In this document: piece by piece, positions 4,372 through 20,125 of the stretch
Layout of the letters: each line of letters opens with the position of its first letter
Position numbering within the stretch: position 1 is the first letter of the stretch
Source: a virus
Virus record (IMG/VR): IMGVR_UViG_3300048549_000939
Coordinates: 1-22,916 of that record
Strand: one strand, 5' to 3'
Length of the DNA: 22,916 nt
Notes under the pieces: model-generated
Databases searched by the model: none
The model's input: the letters and a program-made list of their open reading frames with translations, nothing else
Told to the model about the DNA's origin: nothing
Program-made: the position numbers and the translations under genes

Positions 4372-5879
4372 TGCCCACAATTATTAAGATTAAGAAAAAG
4401 AATCATGCAATGATTGTAGTTGATTCAGAGCCGAGTGTTTTGAATGAGCTATCTGACTTCTTTACTTTCTATGTCCCTGGATATAAGTTTATGCCAGCAT
4501 ACAAGAACAAAGTATGGGATGGAAAGATACGGTTGTTTGATATAAGAACTCATGAGTTATATGCAGGTCTCTATAGGTATGTAAAAGAATTTGCAAATGC
4601 CGAAGGTAGAGACTATGCTATTGAGTTAGAGCATGATAATTATTATGGTTACCCAGAAACAACTGGTGAACCTGATATGAGTTTCTTAAATGACTATACA
4701 CTCACTGGTAACAAAGGTGAGAAGATCGAGCCAAGAGATTATCAGATTCGTGCTATAGAACACGGTTTAAGAACAAAATCGGCAATGTTGATATCACCTA
4801 CTGCATCTGGTAAATCACTTATTATCTATTGTTTGATGCGTTGGTACTTAGAAAACCATGATAAGAAAGTTCTTATTGTAGTACCAACAACTTCTCTTGT
4901 TGAACAAATGTATTCTGATTTTGAAGCTTACAGTAAGTATGATGACAATTTTGATAATAGCATTTGCCAAAGAATCTATTCTGGTGCACCTAAACATAAC
5001 GATCCCGCAAGGGTTATTATATCGACTTGGCAATCAATCTATAAACTGCCTGGTACTTGGTTTTCGCAGTATGGTGCAGTATTTGGAGATGAGGCGCATA
5101 ACTTTAAAGCTAAATCATTAACCAGTATTCTTACAAAATTAAGAGATGCTGAATATAGATTTGGAACAACGGGTACTTTAGATGGAACACAAACACATAA
5201 ACTAGTATTGGAAGGACTATTTGGTCCAGCTTTCTATGTAACTACAACTAAAACTTTAATGGATAGCAATGATCTAGCTCAATTAGATATTAAGGTCTTA
5301 TTGTTGAAATATAAAGACGAGCACTGTCGTGTAGTGAATAAATATAAGTATCAGGACGAAATTGATTGGATTGTAAGATACGAAAATCGTAATAACTTTA
5401 TTTCTAACCTAGCTCTAGATCAAGATGGTAACACATTAGTTCTATTTCAATTTGTAGAAAAACATGGAAAACCTTTATACGATTTGATTTTGAAAAAAGC
5501 ACATAAGAGAAGAAAAGTCTTTTATGTTTCCGGTGAAACTGATACTGACACAAGAGAACATGTACGTAAGATAACAGAGGAACAGAAAAATGCTATCATT
5601 GTCGCATCTTTGGGTACTTTTAGTACTGGCATTAATATTCGGAATCTACACAATATTATCTTTGCGTCACCTTCAAAGAGTCAGATCAAAGTTCTTCAAT
5701 CAATTGGACGAGGATTAAGAAAGAGTGATGATGGTAAGAATACCATATTGTATGATATTGCAGATGACTTACATTGGAAGAGTTCTAAAAACTATACACT
5801 TTTACATGCAGCTGAAAGAATTAAAATATACACCAAGGAACAGTTTACTTTTAACATTATAGAGATCCCATTACCATGA
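4371..5879 (+). CDS. uvsW: DNA/RNA helicase UvsW
   Basis: A 502-aa superfamily 2 helicase, almost the same length as T4 UvsW (503 aa). In T4 it unwinds R-loops and branched recombination intermediates and drives the switch from origin to recombination-dependent replication. The N-terminal substrate-binding domain contains FFTFYVPGYKFMPAYKNKVWDG. Walker A is SPTASGKS (residues 142-149), the DEAH box is at about 240-243, SAT-like TGT follows, and motif VI is QSIGRGLRK at 443-451. A longer reading from 4344 overlaps uvsY by 28 nt. The ATG at 4371, overlapping the uvsY stop, fits the family's N-terminus and the local TAATG coupling, so it was chosen. Confidence 0.95.
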   Translation: MPTIIKIKKKNHAMIVVDSEPSVLNELSDFFTFYVPGYKFMPAYKNKVWDGKIRLFDIRTHELYAGLYRYVKEFANAEGRDYAIELEHDNYYGYPETTGEPDMSFLNDYTLTGNKGEKIEPRDYQIRAIEHGLRTKSAMLISPTASGKSLIIYCLMRWYLENHDKKVLIVVPTTSLVEQMYSDFEAYSKYDDNFDNSICQRIYSGAPKHNDPARVIISTWQSIYKLPGTWFSQYGAVFGDEAHNFKAKSLTSILTKLRDAEYRFGTTGTLDGTQTHKLVLEGLFGPAFYVTTTKTLMDSNDLAQLDIKVLLLKYKDEHCRVVNKYKYQDEIDWIVRYENRNNFISNLALDQDGNTLVLFQFVEKHGKPLYDLILKKAHKRRKVFYVSGETDTDTREHVRKITEEQKNAIIVASLGTFSTGINIRNLHNIIFASPSKSQIKVLQSIGRGLRKSDDGKNTILYDIADDLHWKSSKNYTLLHAAERIKIYTKEQFTFNIIEIPLP

Positions 5880-6268
5880 CATACAGTTTAGACGATATCA
5901 ATATTCAATTATTCAAACTATCATCAGGAGATGAGATTATCTCTCTTGTATATGAAGAGCCTGGAGGTGTTCTTATCGGATTAGAAAGTCCACTTCTTCT
6001 TCATACGAAAGTAACTGCCGAAGCTCATTCATATGCTTTTAGTGATTGGGCTCCGATGTCTAAGAGTAGAGGTAAAATTAATCTCAATCCAAGTCATGTT
6101 ATATCTCAATCAGAAGCAGATGATGAGATTAAAGAACGATATATAAGAATGTGCTTAAGGATAAGGGAAGATGAGATGGAACTAGAAGATGATGATCACG
6201 ATCCTCTAAGAGATGAGCAACTAGAACAGTTCTCAAAATTAGTACCTAAGAAAGCTTCTATACACTGA
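5876..6268 (+). CDS. Small Sm-like (LSm/Hfq-fold) protein, first copy
   Basis: A 130-aa protein that starts in an ATGA overlap with uvsW, so it is probably translationally coupled to it. Residues 8-36 (INIQLFKLSSGDEIIS, then a glycine turn and a hydrophobic strand) look like the first strands of an Sm fold. Residues 67-90 (KINLNPSHVI followed by EIKERY) look like the Sm2 strand plus helix. It aligns by eye with the 95-aa protein at 20146-20433 (IKIVRLTTGEELIC and MFVVEPVTELKNQY). The C-terminal 40 residues are very acidic (ELEDDDHDP). Sm-like proteins of putative cyanophage origin are known to me. RNA binding is inferred, not shown. Confidence 0.6.
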   Translation: MTYSLDDINIQLFKLSSGDEIISLVYEEPGGVLIGLESPLLLHTKVTAEAHSYAFSDWAPMSKSRGKINLNPSHVISQSEADDEIKERYIRMCLRIREDEMELEDDDHDPLRDEQLEQFSKLVPKKASIH

Positions 6269-6303: not shown

Positions 6304-6332
6304 ATTATATCATACTTTTGGAGTTTTGTAAA
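6304..6332 (-). promoter_or_regulatory. Minus-strand sigma70-type promoter (antisense)
   Basis: Read on the minus strand, TTTACA (6327-6332) is followed by a 17-bp spacer and TATAAT (6304-6309). The spacer ends in AAAAGTATGA, identical to the spacer end of the plus-strand promoter at 13110-13138. It would fire leftward at about position 6297, antisense to the Sm-like gene and uvsW. No convincing minus-strand ORF follows, so the product would be a non-coding or antisense RNA. Confidence 0.7.
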
Positions 6333-6377: not shown

Positions 6378-6406
6378 TTTACAAATGGATAGAATTGTGT
6401 TATAAT
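6378..6406 (+). promoter_or_regulatory. Sigma70-type promoter for the gp55-47-46-thyX operon
   Basis: TTTACA at 6378-6383 and TATAAT at 6401-6406 with a 17-bp spacer, in an A/T-rich stretch. It shares TCCTTTACA with three other promoters in this window. It lies 34 bases before the 65-aa gene that opens the operon. The whole gap 6269-6440 holds this promoter, the divergent one at 6304-6332 and otherwise unstructured A/T-rich sequence. Confidence 0.85.
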
Positions 6407-8284: not shown

Positions 8285-9996
8285 TTAGATTTAAGTCAGT
8301 CCAGTGGAAGAACTTTCTTTCAACTGGTAATAATGTAACGCGTATCGATTTAGTAAAGTCGCCATCCACATTAGTGGTTGGTCAGAATGGTGCTGGTAAG
8401 AGTACTTTACTAGATGCACTTTCGTTTGGATTGTTTGGTAAACCCCACCGAGCGATCTCTAAAAATCAGCTAGTCAATACTATAAACAAGAAGCAGTGTA
8501 TTGTTGAAGTTGAATTCGATGTTGGTGTTCATAAGTTTAAGATTGTCCGTGGCATTAGTCCTGGCAAGTTTGAGATTTGGCAGAACGGTAATATGATTAA
8601 TCAATCATCAACTGCTCGTGACTATCAGAAGTTCCTTGAGACTAACATATTGAAATTAAACCATAAATCCTTCCACCAAATTGTCGTGCTTGGATCATCA
8701 TCGTTTATCCCATTTATGCAGTTAAACTCTGGTAACCGTAGAGATGTTATTGAAGACCTATTAGACATTCAAGTATTCTCTAAGATGAATAGTATTCTTA
8801 AAGATAAGATCTCTAAAAATAAAGAAGAGATCAATGATGCTAATTATCGTCTTGAATTGGCTAAAGAGAAAATTACCATGCAAAGGAAGTACATAAGGGA
8901 TATTACTGAGATTAATGATGAAGTAATACGTGAGAAGGGAGTTCTGATTGAGCAGAACAGAGATGAATGGGTATCTTTACAACAAAGTAACTCAGAATTG
9001 TTCAGCGTAATCGAAAAAGAAGAATCCCCTCTAAATAATAGTCTATCAACCTTTCATGACAAAAAACAGTCTCTTTTAGGATACTCTGCTCAATTTAAGC
9101 AACAAATGCAGGGTGTAGTCAAGGATGCAAAGTTCTATGAGGACAATGAGAATTGCCCTACTTGTCAACAAACAATAAATGACGATTTAAGGCAAAATAA
9201 GCTTAAAAGTGCTAAAAGTCGAGCCAAAGAATTACAAGAGGCTATGGATAAAATCTCTAGTGAGGGAGCTGAGGTAGAAAGCTCTATTGGTAATATCAAT
9301 GATGAGTTATCTAAAATCCGTGAGATGCATTCTACAATTAGTGCTAACAATATGGCTATTAGTCGATTACAAAAAGAGATCTCTGCTTTAGAAGCTGATA
9401 TAAATAAACTTACCGGCAATGAAGGTGATCTAGGCCAAGCAAATAAAGACTTGGCTACTGTGGTATCTGAACGTGATACTCTTGGTGAGCTTAAACTTAG
9501 GCTCATGGAAGAAAAAAGCTATTCAGATGCAGCCGGTGAAATGCTAAAAGATACTGGGATTAAAACAAAAGTAATTAAGCAGTATCTTCCGGTCATGAAC
9601 AAGTTGGTTAATCAATACCTTCAAGTTCTTGACTTCTTTGTTTCGTTTAATCTCGATGAGAATTTCAACGAGGTGATTAAGTCAAGACATCGTGATGCAT
9701 TTAACTATGCGTCATTTTCTGAAGGTGAAAAGCAGAGAATCGATTTATCACTGTTATTTACTTGGAGGCAAATTGCGAAGATGAAAAACTCTACTTCTAC
9801 GAATCTCTTGATTCTTGATGAGACTTTTGACTCTTCGTTAGATCATGATGGTATTGACAATTTGATGAAGATACTTGGTACTCTTGAAGACGATAGTAAT
9901 GTATTTGTGATTTCGCATAAAGGTGATTTGCTGGACGGTAAGTTCAGATCCAAGATCGAATTTGTTAAAGAACACAACTTTTCAAAGGTAGCATAA
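8281..9996 (+). CDS. 46: Recombination ATPase subunit gp46 (Rad50-like SMC)
   Basis: A 571-aa SMC-type ATPase (T4 gp46 is about 560 aa), partner of gp47. Walker A is GQNGAGKS (34-41). Long coiled-coil arms flank a zinc hook CPTC at residues 292-295. The ABC signature is FSEGEKQRI (about 479-487), and Walker B is LLILDETFD with D513 and E514. A late switch histidine is seen in VISHKGD. All motifs are intact. The gene begins inside the gp47 stop (ATGA) and ends in a TAATG overlap with thyX. Confidence 0.96.
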   Translation: MIRFKSVQWKNFLSTGNNVTRIDLVKSPSTLVVGQNGAGKSTLLDALSFGLFGKPHRAISKNQLVNTINKKQCIVEVEFDVGVHKFKIVRGISPGKFEIWQNGNMINQSSTARDYQKFLETNILKLNHKSFHQIVVLGSSSFIPFMQLNSGNRRDVIEDLLDIQVFSKMNSILKDKISKNKEEINDANYRLELAKEKITMQRKYIRDITEINDEVIREKGVLIEQNRDEWVSLQQSNSELFSVIEKEESPLNNSLSTFHDKKQSLLGYSAQFKQQMQGVVKDAKFYEDNENCPTCQQTINDDLRQNKLKSAKSRAKELQEAMDKISSEGAEVESSIGNINDELSKIREMHSTISANNMAISRLQKEISALEADINKLTGNEGDLGQANKDLATVVSERDTLGELKLRLMEEKSYSDAAGEMLKDTGIKTKVIKQYLPVMNKLVNQYLQVLDFFVSFNLDENFNEVIKSRHRDAFNYASFSEGEKQRIDLSLLFTWRQIAKMKNSTSTNLLILDETFDSSLDHDGIDNLMKILGTLEDDSNVFVISHKGDLLDGKFRSKIEFVKEHNFSKVA

Positions 9997-10870: not shown

Positions 10871-13012
10871 ATGATTGCAAATAACTCAAAATCGATATTG
10901 GCTAAACTATTGGCCAAAGAGAACATTACTATAGTTCATGGTAACTATAGGACTGCTTTCTTTGATGTTGAAAAGCGTACCCTAGGTTTACCACTATGGA
11001 ATAACCTTGAAGATGTATATGACCTGTTGGTCGGACATGAAGTGGGTCATGCTCTTGAAACACCACCTGAAGGCTGGCATGATGCTGATGTAGAAATACC
11101 TGGTTGCCCACGTAGCTACATTAATGTTGTGGAAGATGTTCGTATCGAAAAGTTAATTCAACGTCGCTATCCTGGTTTGGTATCATGCTTTAAGCGTGGT
11201 TACCAAAAGCTATATGATGATGACTTCTTTGGTGTTAATGAAATACCAGAGTTAACTTCTGATTATGTAAACTTGATTGATAGGATTAATCTAAAAGCTA
11301 AGCTACGTGAACTAATCACTGTTGAATTTACAAGCAGTGAAAGGGATCTAGTTAATGAAGTCTTTGCAGTGGAAACTTGGGAAGACGTGCTTGAGGCTTG
11401 CAGAAAGCTTTATTCACATGCGTTAGAAAATCAAACAAAGTCTCCTTCCATACATAATAATAGCAATGAGGAACAAGATGGAAATATGGACCCGACTGCT
11501 GAGACATCTGAGACTAGCTCTGATAAACCTAGAAGCATGGATGATAATGACGAAGGTGAAGCGGAAAGTCAGAAAAGCGCAGGCAGCTCGAATGAAGAAA
11601 ATGAAGAACAAGACGAGAGTGATGAAGTAGAAACCTTAAGTAATGAAGGTGGAAACGATTACGATCAAACTGAATCTCAGACTGATAAAGCTTTTCGTGA
11701 TAATGAGCATAAGCTTTTAGATCAAGATGAAAACGGCAGAGTTGTAGATGTATGCAATGGATTTACTGAAACTCAAATATCTGAAATGATGTTAGACTAT
11801 TCATATGTTGAAAAATGCAGAGATCATATTGATGCACACTGTACCTATGAGTATAAAGCAACTCGTTACCGTAAATCACTTGATGACTCTTTTAACGATT
11901 TTATGAATGAGAATAAGAAGATCGTTCAAATCATGGCTAAAGAGTTTGAGATGCGTAAGGCAGCTTGGAGATCTACAAGGGCTCAAACTGCTCGTTCAGG
12001 CTCTTTAGATGTTAATAAGTTGTATGCATACAAATACACCGATGACATCTTTAAGCGTATGACTAATTTGCCTGATGCTAAAAACCATGGTATGTTTATG
12101 ATGGTTGACTATTCTGGCTCAATGGCAAATACACTTGGTTCTGTTATTAAACAGATTCTAGTGCTTACAATGTTCTGTCGTAAGGTTAACATTCCATATG
12201 AAGTGGTTGGTTTTACATCACAACGTACTAACCGTTTACAAGATGCTTATATTCCATACGGAAGTGTAGATCACCGTGATGTTAAACTTATCCCACTTGC
12301 TTCTTCTTCTCTTAAAAAAGTTGATCAAGACAAGTGCATCCGTCAGTTATATAATAACTGCTATAGATTAGATAACAGGATCTATCCATATCAATCATCC
12401 GCTGAAGAGTTTGGTGGTACACCACTAGATGAAGCTCTAATGGCTGTTCCTAGTTTGATCAACAAGTTTACTAAGAAGTATAATATTCAAAAGACTAATT
12501 TTGTACTTCTAACAGATGGAGCTGGTGGTAGAATTCAAGTTAAGCGTCATGAAAAAGAAATGGAAGTAACTTCTTATAATCGTGCTGGATATGCTATCAA
12601 TGTAAGTGGTAATTTGGTAAAAGCAGATAAAGGTGATAGACTTACTTCTGCTCTTTTAACTAATCTTAAAAAGCATTACTGTTCTTCTATTACTGGTTAT
12701 TTCTTAGCTAATGCTAGACATGACTTCAACTATGCTCTAACACAAGCAGATAATAGTATCTCATGGGATCAGACTAATCAAGCTCGTAGAACATTCATGA
12801 AACAAAAGTTCTACTCATTGGACAATGTATTAGGTTATGATCGCTATTTCATACTTCGTAATGATCGTAAGTCACTTGATACAGCTAATGAAGATTTCGA
12901 AGTACGTGATAATGCTAAGAAAGGTGAAATAGCTAGAGCATTTAAGAAGTATGCTGGTTCAAAGAAAGCTAATAGAACATTGGCAGTTAAGTTCGCCGAG
13001 ACGGTCGCATAG
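10871..13012 (+). CDS. CobT-like protein: HExxH zinc-peptidase-type domain plus VWA domain
   Basis: A 713-aa protein usually labelled CobT or peptidase in T4-like phages. The N-terminal domain carries HEVGH at residues 56-60, and a downstream ED in VVEDVRIEKL (E88, D89) may supply the third zinc ligand, as in gluzincin peptidases. Residues of about 190-280 are an acidic, Ser/Asn-rich linker. A VWA domain starts near residue 405 with an intact MIDAS: DYSGS (413-417), the Thr of GGTPLDEAL, and LLTDG. It is followed by tRNA-Arg and a MoxR/CobS-like AAA+ ATPase, the usual partner of VWA proteins. Cobalt chelation is not supported by the HExxH domain. A AAA+/VWA remodelling or proteolytic role is more likely. 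GGAG precedes the ATG by 6 nt. Confidence 0.85.
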   Translation: MIANNSKSILAKLLAKENITIVHGNYRTAFFDVEKRTLGLPLWNNLEDVYDLLVGHEVGHALETPPEGWHDADVEIPGCPRSYINVVEDVRIEKLIQRRYPGLVSCFKRGYQKLYDDDFFGVNEIPELTSDYVNLIDRINLKAKLRELITVEFTSSERDLVNEVFAVETWEDVLEACRKLYSHALENQTKSPSIHNNSNEEQDGNMDPTAETSETSSDKPRSMDDNDEGEAESQKSAGSSNEENEEQDESDEVETLSNEGGNDYDQTESQTDKAFRDNEHKLLDQDENGRVVDVCNGFTETQISEMMLDYSYVEKCRDHIDAHCTYEYKATRYRKSLDDSFNDFMNENKKIVQIMAKEFEMRKAAWRSTRAQTARSGSLDVNKLYAYKYTDDIFKRMTNLPDAKNHGMFMMVDYSGSMANTLGSVIKQILVLTMFCRKVNIPYEVVGFTSQRTNRLQDAYIPYGSVDHRDVKLIPLASSSLKKVDQDKCIRQLYNNCYRLDNRIYPYQSSAEEFGGTPLDEALMAVPSLINKFTKKYNIQKTNFVLLTDGAGGRIQVKRHEKEMEVTSYNRAGYAINVSGNLVKADKGDRLTSALLTNLKKHYCSSITGYFLANARHDFNYALTQADNSISWDQTNQARRTFMKQKFYSLDNVLGYDRYFILRNDRKSLDTANEDFEVRDNAKKGEIARAFKKYAGSKKANRTLAVKFAETVA

Positions 13013-13079
13013 CTCAGCTGGATAGAGCGCTGGTCTACGAAACCAGAGGCCGGGAGTTCGAATCTCTCTGCGACCACCA
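13003..13079 (+). tRNA. tRNA-Arg (anticodon ACG)
   Basis: A complete cloverleaf: acceptor GGTCGCA (13003-13009) with TGCGACC (13069-13075), D-stem GCTC/GAGC, anticodon stem CTGGT/ACCAG with a seven-base loop holding ACG at 13037-13039, T-stem GGGAG/CTCTC with TTCGAAT loop (one G-T pair), discriminator A and encoded CCA at 13077-13079. The anticodon, probably with A34 modified to inosine, reads CGT/CGC/CGA Arg codons, and CGT is frequent in these genes. The first ten bases overlap the last codons and stop of the cobT-like gene, and a promoter follows directly. Confidence 0.97.
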
Positions 13080-14347: not shown

Positions 14348-14724
14348 TGGTAGAATATAAATTCAATGAAGGTACTCTTATCAGAGAACTAAAAGAGTAT
14401 ATTGACGGAACTTACAATGGTCACTACTCAAAAAATAAATTTCAATCAACTGAATTTATTATTGACTGTGGTCATGGTATGGGATTCGCTTTAGGTAATG
14501 TTCTAAAGTATGCCCAAAGATACGGCAAGAAAGATGGTGCAAACCGTAAAGACATTATGAAAATCTTGCACTATGCCCTTATTGCTTTACATCAGCATGA
14601 CGAAGATATGAAAGAAAATGATTTTGAAAAAGGTCAAGCTGAGTGCACTTTTGGGGTTTACAATTCACCTCAAATGGTATATAATACTAATTACAATATG
14701 AAAATCAATGGAGATACTAAATAA
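14347..14724 (+). CDS. DUF3310 (SaV-like) protein
   Basis: A 125-aa protein whose middle (GMGFALGNVLKYAQRYGKKDGANRKDIMKILHYALIAL, about residues 49-86) matches the DUF3310/SaV-like pattern of a GFxxGNxxKYxxRxGKK block followed by a helical DxxKAxxYL block. The family is common in phages and its function is not settled; nucleotide-related roles have been proposed. It has TAATG overlaps with both the CobS-like gene before it and gp45 after it, so it is embedded in the clamp operon. Confidence 0.75.
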   Translation: MVEYKFNEGTLIRELKEYIDGTYNGHYSKNKFQSTEFIIDCGHGMGFALGNVLKYAQRYGKKDGANRKDIMKILHYALIALHQHDEDMKENDFEKGQAECTFGVYNSPQMVYNTNYNMKINGDTK

Positions 14725-15407
14725 TGAAACTATCTAATGAAACCCGTGATGTACTAAAAAACTTTGCATCAATTAATTCAAATATCGTATTTAACGGTGG
14801 AAATGAAATCAAGACTATGAGTGAGGCAAAGAACATTATGTCTACTGCCACTGTAGCTGAAACTTTCCCCGACAATCTATTAGGTATCTATGACCTAAAC
14901 GAGTTCCTCGGAGTCATGAGCATGTTTGATGATCCTGAGTTGCAGTTCTCAGCTGATTATAATTCTGTCAAAATTGTACAGGATCGTAAATCAGTTAATT
15001 ACTACTTCTCAGATCCTTCCATTTTAACATCTCCATCAAAGGTCATCACCATGCCTGACCCCGAGGTCACACTTACGCTGACTGCCGATAATATCGCCCA
15101 AATGCGAAAGGCAGCCTCAGCTCTTGGAGTTAGCGATGTAGTCATCACTGCTAATCCAGGCGATGCACACATCACGATTCGGGTAACTGATGTGGAAGAT
15201 GCTACAGCCAATAACTTTGAGCTGGCCGTTGATGGTCCCCCAGCGAGTGCACCATATCGGTTCATCTTTAACATCGCTAACTTCAAGATTATTCAAGGCG
15301 ACTATAATGTTCGTATCTCGTCTAAACTAATTTCTAGTTGGACTAATGAAAACACAGCGGTAGAATACTTTATCGCTTTGGAAAAGGCTTCTAACTATGG
15401 AGGATAA
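14724..15407 (+). CDS. 45: Sliding clamp gp45
   Basis: A 227-aa trimeric DNA polymerase clamp, the same size as T4 gp45 (228 aa). The start MKLSNETRDVLKNFASINSNI mirrors T4 MKLSKDTTALLKNFATINSGI. The IYDLNEFLGVMSMF block and the C-terminal VEYFIALEKAS also match. It provides processivity to gp43 and, in T4, activates late transcription through gp55 and gp33. Base use is a little richer in C at third positions than in the neighbouring genes. It starts in a TAATG overlap. Confidence 0.96.
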   Translation: MKLSNETRDVLKNFASINSNIVFNGGNEIKTMSEAKNIMSTATVAETFPDNLLGIYDLNEFLGVMSMFDDPELQFSADYNSVKIVQDRKSVNYYFSDPSILTSPSKVITMPDPEVTLTLTADNIAQMRKAASALGVSDVVITANPGDAHITIRVTDVEDATANNFELAVDGPPASAPYRFIFNIANFKIIQGDYNVRISSKLISSWTNENTAVEYFIALEKASNYGG

Positions 15408-15408
15408 T

Positions 15409-15642
15409 ATGCAAGAAGCACCACAACTAAACATTGGTGATCTTTTTTCAGTTATAAAGATCATTGATGCATGCTCTGAACGAGGAGCGTTCAAAGGTAA
15501 TGAAATGGCATCTGTTGGAGCCGTACGAGACCGTATTGCTGCCTTTGCCGAAACAAACCAGCCAGTGGAGGAAAGTAATGAAGACCTTGGTGATACTGAC
15601 GACGGGGATGCTTTTGTCGACACAGACATTAGCGACGACTAA
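15409..15642 (+). CDS. Small acidic protein downstream of gp45, function unknown
   Basis: A 77-aa protein. The ATG at 15409 is preceded by GGAGGA at 15399-15404, inside the gp45 end. A start at 15397 would sit on top of that ribosome site and is less likely. The core IKIIDACSERGAFKGNEMASVGAVRDRI looks conserved in my memory of small proteins following gp45 in marine T4-like phages, but no function is known to me. The C-terminal 25 residues are strongly acidic (DTDDGD, DISDD). Its last 65 nt overlap the next gene in another frame. Confidence 0.75.
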   Translation: MQEAPQLNIGDLFSVIKIIDACSERGAFKGNEMASVGAVRDRIAAFAETNQPVEESNEDLGDTDDGDAFVDTDISDD

Positions 15643-16099
15643 TTGTAAGTACACACACCAAGTAGGTGGAAACTTTACGCATAAGATTGAGTCAATGACC
15701 AATTATCAGCGTAAGGTTTTTCCTTACATAGAAGATACCAGAGCTTGTGTAGTTTCAATGAATGTTAAAATTGAAGGAACAGAATATCACACTAAAGGTA
15801 AATTCGTATTTGGTCCTGATCAAACTGAAACAAATGCTTGTATGCATGCTGAAGTAAGGGCTAAAGAGAATATCATTAAAATTGTTTCACCTGAAATATT
15901 AACTGGTACTACAACCATGGATTGTACTCCAGATGAGACGCCCGTAGTAGTAAGTCAAAAAGACGAAGTAATTGATTTTACTGAGACTGAAGACTTTATG
16001 AAAGGTTGGGCAAAACCAGTTCCACAAAAGTCGAATAGAGTATTCAACTTTGGAAACATGGCTAGTAGCATTGGGTTGCTAGTGACTATATTGAAGTAG
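15578..16099 (+). CDS. Exported cysteine-containing protein, unknown function
   Basis: A 173-aa protein with a clear signal peptide: MKTLVILTTGMLLSTQTLA, probable cleavage after A19. The start at 15578 has a strong GGAGGAAA site and is preferred over 15464, which would add 38 residues shadowing the 77-aa gene. The mature part contains four cysteines (NCKYTH, RACVVS, NACMHA, MDCTPD), suitable for two disulfides in the periplasm. The C-terminus ends in a hydrophobic segment (FGNMASSIGLLVTILK). No family recognised. It is the first of three consecutive envelope-targeted genes inside the replication operon. Confidence 0.75.
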   Translation: MKTLVILTTGMLLSTQTLATTNCKYTHQVGGNFTHKIESMTNYQRKVFPYIEDTRACVVSMNVKIEGTEYHTKGKFVFGPDQTETNACMHAEVRAKENIIKIVSPEILTGTTTMDCTPDETPVVVSQKDEVIDFTETEDFMKGWAKPVPQKSNRVFNFGNMASSIGLLVTILK

Positions 16100-16105
16100 T
16101 ATATT

Positions 16106-16762
16106 ATGGAGAGAAAATTGAAATCATACTTCCTAACCTTACCACTTGCAGCGGTTGCTCTTGCTGCATGTAGTAGTAATGAAAAAATCACTCAAGCAGT
16201 TGTTATTGAAGAACAACGTGAGATGGTTGAAGAGCAAATTGATAGAATGCCTAAATGGTTTACTAAAATTCCTGTAAAAGACGAAAGCATCTTTGCAGTA
16301 GGTACTGCCGTAACTCCTGATTTACAGTTAAGTTATGATATTGCAGTACTTAATGCTAAGACGACTTTGGCTGATAGGATTAATGGTAAAGTTCGTTCTC
16401 AAACTAAAAACTTTATTGCTAAAGTAGGATCAACTGATCTTGATGTAGCAACACTAAATGAAGTTGAAAAGGTCACTAAGAATATTATTGCTGATGTAGA
16501 TGTTGCAGGTTATGCAGTATCAGAAGCTGAAGTATTCCCTGATGGTACTCAATACCGTGCGTTTGTTCTTCTTGAGTATAATGACCTTGAAGCAAATAAG
16601 ATTATTGTGAATCGTCTTCGTAAAGACCGTTTGCTTTATTCTAAGCTAAGATCAAATAAGGCATTCAAAGAGCTAGACAATGCAGTAGACGAAGTCAAAG
16701 AAGACGAATCTAAGCAGTCTGAAATGAACCTAATTTTAGAAGGATTGGTACCAAATGGTTAA
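16106..16762 (+). CDS. LPP20-like outer-membrane lipoprotein
   Basis: A 218-aa protein with a lipoprotein signal: hydrophobic stretch YFLTLPLAAVALAAC with lipobox LAAC followed by SSN. The mature protein begins near C22, and the absence of Asp at +2 favours the outer membrane. After a helical spacer, PKWFTKIPVKDESIFAVGTAVTPDLQLSYDIAVLNAKTTLADRI has the WF...P...G.A......A...A...A...LA pattern of the LPP20 family. The ATG at 16106 has no obvious ribosome site. An in-frame TTG at 16118, preceded by GGAGAG, would give a more standard signal peptide and may be the true start. It overlaps the next gene by 8 nt. Confidence 0.75.
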   Translation: MERKLKSYFLTLPLAAVALAACSSNEKITQAVVIEEQREMVEEQIDRMPKWFTKIPVKDESIFAVGTAVTPDLQLSYDIAVLNAKTTLADRINGKVRSQTKNFIAKVGSTDLDVATLNEVEKVTKNIIADVDVAGYAVSEAEVFPDGTQYRAFVLLEYNDLEANKIIVNRLRKDRLLYSKLRSNKAFKELDNAVDEVKEDESKQSEMNLILEGLVPNG

Positions 16763-17171
16763 ACAAATAACAATTGCTAGTTTGATGACACTGGGTGCGT
16801 GTCATCCAGCTTTAGCACATGAACCTAATGTGACAGATTATAATAAGTCTGTGATTAATCAAGTTCCTTACAAAGTCGAAGTTTGTAGGGATGTAACAGT
16901 ATCTGGTGATAAAACCGGTGATATGCTTAAAGGTGCTATCATTGGTGGTATTATCGGTAACAACGTAACTAAAAACGTAGACAATGGAGGAACAGTTGGA
17001 GCATTACTTGGTGGTATGCTTGGGCATTCAAATAGTAACGCTAGTGGTGGTACTAAGAGAGTGTGCAATATTGAAACGCGCTATAAAGAAGAGTCTTTAA
17101 CTCTTTACTCACATAGCAAAATTACTTTTGAGTGGATGGGAAAAACCTATACGGTACAGTTTCAAAAATAA
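16755..17171 (+). CDS. Exported glycine-zipper (17-kDa antigen-like) protein
   Basis: A 138-aa protein with a signal peptide (MVKQITIASLMTLGACHPALA, cleavage near A21). The middle GDMLKGAIIGGIIGNNVTKNVDNGGTVGALLGGMLGH (about residues 54-90) is a double glycine-zipper 2TM domain of the Rickettsia 17-kDa antigen type. It is flanked by cysteines C38 and C103, which could form a disulfide. The C-terminal TYKEES-like basic/beta region is also typical. It starts 8 nt inside the lipoprotein gene, so the two are co-translated. Such proteins usually insert in or associate with the cell envelope. Its presence between clamp and clamp-loader genes is unusual compared with T4. Confidence 0.8.
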   Translation: MVKQITIASLMTLGACHPALAHEPNVTDYNKSVINQVPYKVEVCRDVTVSGDKTGDMLKGAIIGGIIGNNVTKNVDNGGTVGALLGGMLGHSNSNASGGTKRVCNIETRYKEESLTLYSHSKITFEWMGKTYTVQFQK

Positions 17172-17174
17172 CTG

Positions 17175-17203
17175 TTTACAATCACTCAAAAGTGTGATAT
17201 AAT
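17175..17203 (+). promoter_or_regulatory. Sigma70-type promoter for gp44-gp62-regA
   Basis: TTTACA (17175-17180), 17-bp spacer ending AAAAGTGTGA, TATAAT (17198-17203). It starts only four bases after the stop of the glycine-zipper gene and 25 bases before gp44. Unlike its sisters it has CTG rather than TCC before the -35. Confidence 0.88.
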
Positions 17204-17227: not shown

Positions 17228-18160
17228 ATGAGTGTTGAATTCCTATGGGTTGAAAAGTATCGCCCACAAACAATTAATGATTGTGTTCTTACTGATGAAA
17301 TGAAGAACACATTCCAAGCTATCCTAGATACAGGTGAGCTTCCTAATATGATGTTTTCTGGCTCTGCTGGTACGGGCAAAACCACAGTTGCAAGAGCATT
17401 ATGTAATGAACTAAATCTAGACCATATTGTAGTCAACGGATCTGAAGAAGGTAACATTGACACACTACGTGGTAAGATTAAACAGTTCGCCTCTTCTGTT
17501 TCACTGCAAGGTGGGTACAAGGTAGTAATTCTGGATGAGGCTGATTACCTTAATCCTCAATCAACCCAACCCGCCTTGCGTGGATTCATTGAAGAGTTTT
17601 CAAACAATTGTAGGTTTATCCTTACATGTAACTTCAAAAATCGTATCATTGAACCACTTCATTCAAGGTGTTCAGTATATGACTTTAGTATTCCAAAAGA
17701 GTACAAAGCTGGTATTGCTCATAAGTTCTTTGTTAGACTACAAAAGATTTTGCAAGACGAAGGTGTTGAAGCTGAACCAGCTGTAGTTGCTAATATTGTT
17801 AACAAGCATTTCCCAGACTTCCGTAGAGTACTTGGTGAATGCCAACGTTACAGTGTATCTGGTAAAATTGAAGCAAGTTCAGTTACTCTTATTCAAGATC
17901 AAACTGAATTAACCAACCATCTTAAAAACAAAGACTTCAAAAAGATGCGTTTATGGGTTGCTAATAATATTGATGTTGAACCACAACAAATCTTTAGAAT
18001 GATTTATGACAATATGGCCACTATGGCTAAACCACATTCAATTCCACAACTAGTTCTTATTCTTGCTGACTATCAGTATAAGAATGCATTTGTAGCCGAC
18101 CATGAATTAAACATGGTTGCTTGCATGACGGAGCTTATGGCCAATGTCGAGTTTGCTTAG
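17228..18160 (+). CDS. 44: Clamp loader large subunit gp44
   Basis: A 310-aa AAA+ clamp loader ATPase (T4 gp44 is 319 aa) which with gp62 opens and loads the gp45 clamp. Opening motif LWVEKYRPQTINDCVL, Walker A GSAGTGKT (45-52), Walker B VVILDEAD (99-106) and the SRC arginine-finger motif (146-148) are all present. The rest is the helical collar domain. GGAG sits 7 nt before the ATG. The 3' end contains the start of the hidden 58-aa gene. Confidence 0.96.
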   Translation: MSVEFLWVEKYRPQTINDCVLTDEMKNTFQAILDTGELPNMMFSGSAGTGKTTVARALCNELNLDHIVVNGSEEGNIDTLRGKIKQFASSVSLQGGYKVVILDEADYLNPQSTQPALRGFIEEFSNNCRFILTCNFKNRIIEPLHSRCSVYDFSIPKEYKAGIAHKFFVRLQKILQDEGVEAEPAVVANIVNKHFPDFRRVLGECQRYSVSGKIEASSVTLIQDQTELTNHLKNKDFKKMRLWVANNIDVEPQQIFRMIYDNMATMAKPHSIPQLVLILADYQYKNAFVADHELNMVACMTELMANVEFA

Positions 18161-18320
18161 TACAATGTGGAGAATATGGGCTAAGACAATTGGCAGCAAG
18201 ATTGGCGATACTAAAGAAAGCGATATTGCTGCTATTCTAAGAACTGTTTGGGTTATAACTCACCTTGTTGCGTGTTTCTTTATTATTGCGCACAATGGTA
18301 TAAAATTAGGATGGTTTTAA
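18144..18320 (+). CDS. Small membrane protein between gp44 and gp62
   Basis: A 58-aa ORF reading MSSLLSTMWRIWAKTIG at the N-terminus, then a hydrophilic stretch, then one hydrophobic segment (VWVITHLVACFFIIAH, about residues 36-51) and a short C-terminus ending GWF. It fills exactly the gap between gp44 and gp62, overlapping gp44 by 17 nt and ending 1 nt before the gp62 ATG. The start at 18144 has GGAG at 18130-18133. An internal ATG at 18165 is an alternative, without a visible ribosome site. I recall similar MWRIWAK proteins in related marine phages, but the function is unknown. A single-pass inner-membrane protein is inferred. Confidence 0.72.
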   Translation: MSSLLSTMWRIWAKTIGSKIGDTKESDIAAILRTVWVITHLVACFFIIAHNGIKLGWF

Positions 18321-20088: not shown

Positions 20089-20096
20089 ATATCTTT

Positions 20097-20125
20097 GAGA
20101 GCCGTTTCGGCGGCTCTCATTCTTT
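20097..20125 (+). terminator. Rho-independent terminator after the hsp20 operon
   Basis: GAGAGCCG (20097-20104) pairs perfectly with CGGCTCTC (20111-20118) around TTTCGG, followed by ATTCTTT. The stem is strong. The U-tract is interrupted, so some read-through into the next gene (20146) is possible and may be its main source of late transcription. Confidence 0.8.

Follow-up and report, generated by a model that had tools for sequence, protein, structure and literature searches.

Exported P1 and P2 genes and a separate glycine-zipper gene between the clamp and clamp-loader genes of a marine T4-like phage: candidate early envelope cargo

Spackle of phage T4 is an early periplasmic protein that blocks a second infection (PMC7677548). 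In bacteria, SlyB is a lipoprotein that forms rings and guards the outer membrane (PMC13067283), and in the basal-disk protein FlgP, of the SHS2-like group, a beta-hairpin that forms rings follows the SHS2 helix and precedes the second strand (PMC12222027). For marine phages, two reports describe a CsgGF curli cluster of outer-membrane genes in pelagimyophages, the purpose of which is unexplained (PMC7029224, PMC9004378), and the second of these introduces Melnitz, a cultured phage of OM43. SAR11 and OM43, the hosts of phages of this group, are abundant marine bacteria. The curli genes aside, very little is known, to our knowledge, of what these phages do to the host envelope.

The window analysed here, a whole stretch of 22,916 nt, comes from a T4-like marine phage and covers part of its genome. 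Methylophilales phage Melnitz and Pelagibacter phage HTVC008M (Kyanoviridae) are among its closest named relatives, to which the gp45 of the window is 45–46% identical. Four genes, P4, P1, P2 and P3 in order, lie between those of the sliding clamp gp45 (14724..15407, + strand; phrog_223, E 1.9e-68) and the clamp-loader large subunit gp44 (17228..18160, +; phrog_168, E 2.3e-117). P4 (15397..15642, +; phrog_13789, E 1e-12) is an ordinary non-exported gene of 81 aa. It is followed by P1 (15578..16099, +), predicted from the signal rule and family alignments to be a Sec-exported protein of 173 aa with four invariant cysteines; by P2 (16106..16762, +), a predicted 218-aa lipoprotein, recognised by its lipobox and by an Lpp20/SHS2-like fold in the structure model; and by P3 (16755..17171, +), a predicted exported glycine-zipper 2TM protein (PF05433) of 138 aa with two invariant cysteines. 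P1 overlaps P4 by 65 nt, a gap of 6 nt separates P1 from P2, and P2 and P3 overlap by 8 nt. The first-pass annotation of this DNA had placed three envelope genes from 15578 (start of P1) to 17171 (end of P3), and these coordinates are correct, but it had P1 directly following gp45, a position that is in fact taken by P4, as is also seen in sister clades and in phage C48C1. Further along the window, a 58-aa protein with a likely membrane segment is encoded at 18144–18320, between gp44 and gp62 (phrog_1679); a relative is found at the same place in a sister clade, and Melnitz has a small gene there.

The gp45 gene is preceded by an early-type sigma-70-like promoter, TTTACA-17-TATAAT (14657..14685, +; 11/12 matches), which scores 11/12 likewise in 4/4 other window-clade contigs tested. 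The promoter of gp44 (17175..17203, +; TTTACA-17-TATAAT, 11/12), which is seen in all tested window-clade and sister-clade contigs, marks the downstream border of the cargo. Nearly identical promoters of this type, all 11/12, precede cobS, gp45, gp44 and gp43, and shuffled stretches reach this score in 7 of 2000 cases. A scan of 15408–17171 for promoters gave nothing better than 9/12, and no terminator-like site was found there either. As the gp45 and gp44 promoters flank the cargo with nothing strong in between, the cargo forms the end of the gp45 unit, before the promoter of gp44. The promoter anatomy thus supports candidate expression of P1–P3 within the early-type gp45 transcription unit, in agreement with the earlier proposal that they share a transcript with the clamp. 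In a scan of the window, no T4-type late motif (ATAAATA) was found near P1–P3; the motif is present just upstream of the virion gene gp19 and also before uvsY, though over the whole window its number does not exceed the chance expectation.

Other regulatory features of the window include divergent promoters at 6304–6332 (minus strand) and 6378–6406 (plus strand), each with 11/12 matches. The minus-strand promoter faces the end of a 130-aa gene (5876–6268) and has no obvious gene behind it; production of an antisense or small RNA is possible. A strong terminator-like hairpin of 10 pairs (20096–20119) is located a few hundred bases upstream of gp43, and a tRNA-Arg(ACG) at 13003–13079, shortly before the cobS promoter, overlaps the cobT-like gene at its end.

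Export of the three proteins was assessed with a crude signal rule (K/R, a hydrophobic core, and an AxA site or lipobox). The rule is positive for 3 of the 30 window genes, and these are exactly P1, P2 and P3. It is also positive for 14/149 Melnitz genes and for 3/43 spurious minus-strand ORFs, and at such background rates a triple of this kind would occur anywhere in the window by chance in about 2% of cases. The main support for export comes from signal conservation rather than from the crude rule: the lipobox Cys is kept in 80/80 unique P2 relatives, and the AxA site is found in 52/56 P3 relatives and 54/76 P1 relatives. The export signals first noticed on all three proteins are thus borne out, as far as conserved sequence can predict export. 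The three genes are under purifying selection, with dN/dS values of 0.15 (P1), 0.10 (P2) and 0.17 (P3), compared with 0.07 for gp45 and gp44; diversifying selection is not indicated by these values for P1–P3.

The four cysteines of P1 (C23, C57, C88 and C116) are invariant in alignments across the P1 family. No family in Pfam, PHROGs or NCBIfam matches P1 above cut-off, matches to Herpes gp350 and Gp5_C being below it, and no relatives turned up among 84,980 genomes of bacteria and archaea. P1 therefore appears to be a phage-only four-cysteine family. In structure models computed from alignments with rows from the window and IMG/VR loci only, the moderately confident core of P1 (residues 29–110, pLDDT about 80) consists of strands and one helix. 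It matches no more than beta-alpha arrangements of the Rad52 and dsRBD type (Z 8.5 at most), which are uninformative for function, and in BFVD the model matches a phage protein without a name (E 1.9e-7). Structure prediction, which the first-pass annotation had suggested for these proteins, is informative for P2, whose model has an Lpp20-like fold, but not for P1. A sequence search of the PDB with the P1 and P2 profiles gave no significant match.

P2 carries the lipobox LAAC with Cys22 as the predicted acylation site. Its true start may be TTG 16118 instead of ATG 16106, because GGAGAG, a candidate ribosome-binding site for the TTG, overlaps the ATG. The P2 model (pLDDT 70.3) has a beta-alpha-beta-beta core, and its best solved match is Lpp20 of H. 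pylori (5ok8; Z 8.7, rmsd 3.7, 103/114 residues), which scores 2.4 Z above the next match, with dodecins following near Z 6. There is no Pfam match of PF02169 (LPP20) to P2 at E<=1, and the family weakly matches 2/12 P2 relatives (best E 0.0044). As PF02169 does not recognise P2, we call the protein Lpp20-like and not a family member; of the initial designation as an LPP20-like lipoprotein, lipobox and fold are retained, but membership in the Pfam family is not. The ring-forming beta-hairpin of FlgP is absent from the P2 model, which has helices 114–124 and 127–130 there instead. We also considered P2 as part of a spanin pair, and rejected this, as no inner-membrane partner with a long periplasmic coiled coil and a nested or overlapping gene is found beside it; the small membrane peptide beside P2 in relatives is about 45 aa long, and P2 relatives match spanins only weakly (E 0.0068 at best). 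PADLOC gave no match, and a weak match to the superinfection exclusion protein Cor was seen in one P2 relative only (E 0.053). In cellular genomes there are just two matches to P2, both on MAG contigs that also carry phage gp32 and gp33 close by.

P3 scores 27.6 bits against PF05433 (glycine zipper 2TM; cut-off 24.2), which confirms its initial identification, and 25/25 of its relatives match this family at E<=0.01. Two cysteines, C44 and C104, flank the zipper and are invariant in 25 relatives. A lipobox-like LGAC is present at Cys16 of P3, but a lipobox is found in only 11/56 relatives, with the AxA site predominating. Among host proteins, P3 is similar to lipoproteins of the SlyB and YiaD class, its profile giving a weak match to SlyB (7ojf; E 0.019) that spans the zipper and the preceding strand. 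The hit of P3 to phrog_1277, a “DNA methyltransferase”, looks like a mislabelled zipper match and was disregarded. In three contigs, the place of P3 is taken by a zipper-less exported gene of 76–82 aa (7179–7409 in L009 and L013, 7180–7428 in L014) with similar ends and a P3 profile score of about 1 bit; we only suspect that it is a P3 from which the glycine zipper has been deleted. Members of the P3 family are found in many different surroundings, with ribonucleotide reductase and mazG as examples of nearby genes, and the sequence comparisons strongly support P3 as a separate, widely distributed family that travels apart from P1–P2.

P1 and P2 by comparison keep together. Profile searches of IMG/VR yielded 365 confirmed stretches with P2 and 111 with P1, and P2 is located just downstream of P1 in 59/59 unique loci with enough sequence. 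The order small lipoprotein, P1, 45-aa membrane peptide, P2 is found in 47 loci, and the gene downstream was surveyed in 47 P1–P2 loci, among them window-clade contigs: in 31 of these, the first gene to be recognised past P2 encodes a SleB-type cell wall hydrolase like Melnitz gp77 (PF07486 Hydrolase_2, E 1.1e-21), a member of the PHROG lysis class with an export-like N-terminus. In the window clade, P1–P2 are found at the gp45–gp44 site without the two small genes, and P3 is present as well. There is therefore strong support, at the level of gene order, for P1–P2 being the conserved unit and the core of a marine phage module, with the three-gene set being less fundamental. In the literature searched on phage proteins of the LPP20 or glycine-zipper kind, we found this module nowhere described, and the accessible portions of the pelagiphage and methylophage papers discuss the curli genes but not P1–P2.

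Comparison of related phages suggests how P1–P3 came to their present place. The order gp45-P4-P1-P2-P3-gp44 belongs to the window clade, with the zipper-less gene for P3 in the three contigs above. A sister clade (nine contigs, gp45 mostly 73–76% identical) has P4 and then gp44 directly, without P1–P3, as expected if these genes were inserted between clamp and clamp loader, as originally claimed. In six contigs with gp45 about 50% identical, P3 adjoins gp44 without P1–P2. At one further locus (L266), this interval is filled by other genes and one for a ribosomal S21 protein; phage C48C1 has a tRNA-Thr and, at 9349–9900 of its locus (L109), an alternative oxidase annotated as hypothetical (PF01786, E 2.1e-66); and Melnitz and HTVC008M have nothing between gp45 and gp44. 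As the contents differ by lineage, we regard the interval as a cargo site and the P1–P3 cluster as the load of one lineage. Conserved co-occurrence of all three genes at this site, which was to be sought in other marine phages, does not extend beyond the window's own clade. The first-pass annotation had also named what would speak against its reading, namely homologues scattered over unrelated loci and belonging to virions. Homologues do turn up away from this site, among other places in the accessory region of Melnitz and close to ribonucleotide reductase, but they sit among early or accessory genes, and none was seen adjoining head, tail or other virion genes in the loci read.

We propose, giving it about an even chance, that P1–P3 are early envelope-conditioning cargo that serves superinfection exclusion, outer-membrane reinforcement or both, the joint function being our inference. 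These two uses are the likeliest for the module, and sequence does not separate them. The first-pass annotation had likewise suggested a joint early role in the envelope, for superinfection exclusion, stabilisation or preparation for lysis; the idea is reasonable, though sequence does not decide among these uses. P2 would be anchored in the outer membrane soon after infection, oligomerising through its Lpp20/SHS2 domain, with P1 as its disulfide-bonded periplasmic partner, and P3 would insert as a SlyB-type zipper oligomer. The combined effect would be to strengthen or re-seal the outer membrane and the periplasm; the infected cell could then remain whole while replication proceeds, and injection by later phages could become harder. 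The purifying selection on P1–P3 counts against a rapidly diversifying exclusion gene. Moreover, since P3 is often found without P1–P2 nearby and has a zipper-less substitute in three window-clade contigs, P1, P2 and P3 do not necessarily work jointly. Should the module prove to exclude competitors or to guard the membrane, abundant ocean viruses would have in it one of their main means of taking over the host, and it can be tested in Melnitz.

The SleB neighbour makes control of a wall hydrolase the main rival explanation. P1 and P2 might localise or restrain the exported peptidoglycan hydrolase, setting when or where the wall is cut, and the frequent position of a gp77-like gene after P2, its lysis class and its export-like N-terminus would fit wall cutting or lysis control equally; the small lipoprotein and the membrane peptide could complete an envelope-spanning unit. 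In the window clade, however, P2 is followed by P3 or the zipper-less gene and then by gp44, with no hydrolase at this site; the window's phage may encode one at another place. The promoter of the unit is also of the early type. Melnitz, furthermore, has overlapping Rz/Rz1-like genes at 24173–24565 and 24501–24908 of its locus (L107; phrog_739, E 5.3e-17, and phrog_812, E 4.6e-15), listed as hypothetical in the record and not mentioned in the accessible portions of the Melnitz paper. With this ordinary spanin pair and a GH108 endolysin elsewhere in the genome, P1–P2 are not its classical lysis cassette, and we consider hydrolase control unlikely. A broader idea, which we think rather unlikely, is that small lipoprotein, P1, membrane peptide, P2 and SleB hydrolase are parts of one undescribed envelope-spanning machine, assembled early in infection by marine T4-like phages. 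It would combine an outer-membrane assembly of the Lpp20 type with a peptide of the inner membrane and a wall hydrolase under control, and would remodel the envelope of SAR11- and OM43-type hosts.

The metabolic cargo in the C48C1 slot, and the likeness of P3 to host SlyB/YiaD-class lipoproteins, would suit auxiliary nutrient or stress genes that aid the envelope of a starved marine host, for example through outer-membrane uptake or structural repair, with no anti-phage role. Against this, P1 has no detected cellular relative and the two cellular contigs with P2 carry phage genes nearby, so that P1 and P2 look like long-standing phage genes and not recent host acquisitions; this reading seems quite improbable to us. 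Some phages do place lipoproteins in their virions, but we found nothing that favours P1–P3 being structural proteins with chance hydrophobic N-termini; given the conserved lipobox and AxA sites, a late motif upstream of gp19 but not near P1–P3, and the lack of head or tail genes beside their relatives in the loci read, we find this highly improbable.

The nearest counterparts are in Melnitz, where gp74 resembles P1 (50% over residues 23–137), gp76 resembles P2 (61.5%) and gp58 resembles P3 (56%), all annotated as hypothetical. Unlike the window genes, they are found in an accessory region (34.9–42.2 kb), with gp75 between the P1 and P2 homologues and the P3 homologue about 5.5 kb upstream of that of P1. 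Pelagibacter phages HTVC008M (gp178) and Mosig (gp167) have P2-like lipoproteins with about 30% identity to P2, in the order exported cysteine protein, membrane peptide, P2-like protein, which is reminiscent of the P1–P2 module; however, the exported protein at its head differs from P1, and the gene after the P2-like one encodes a thioredoxin or glutaredoxin. The CsgGF cluster is found in the same phage group, but consists of other genes and lies elsewhere in Melnitz (from 50.7 kb).

Among bacterial proteins, the SHS2-like lipoproteins Lpp20 of Helicobacter pylori and FlgP of Campylobacter have a beta-alpha-beta-beta domain in common with P2, without a sequence match above the Pfam cut-off. 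SlyB and 17-kDa antigen proteins share the glycine zipper (PF05433) with P3, but the P3 family mostly has a signal peptidase I site in place of a lipobox, and two conserved cysteines flank its zipper. No family match linking Spackle to P1–P3 was found; as an early exported protein of a T4-like phage, Spackle is nevertheless the closest functional analogue of the role proposed here.
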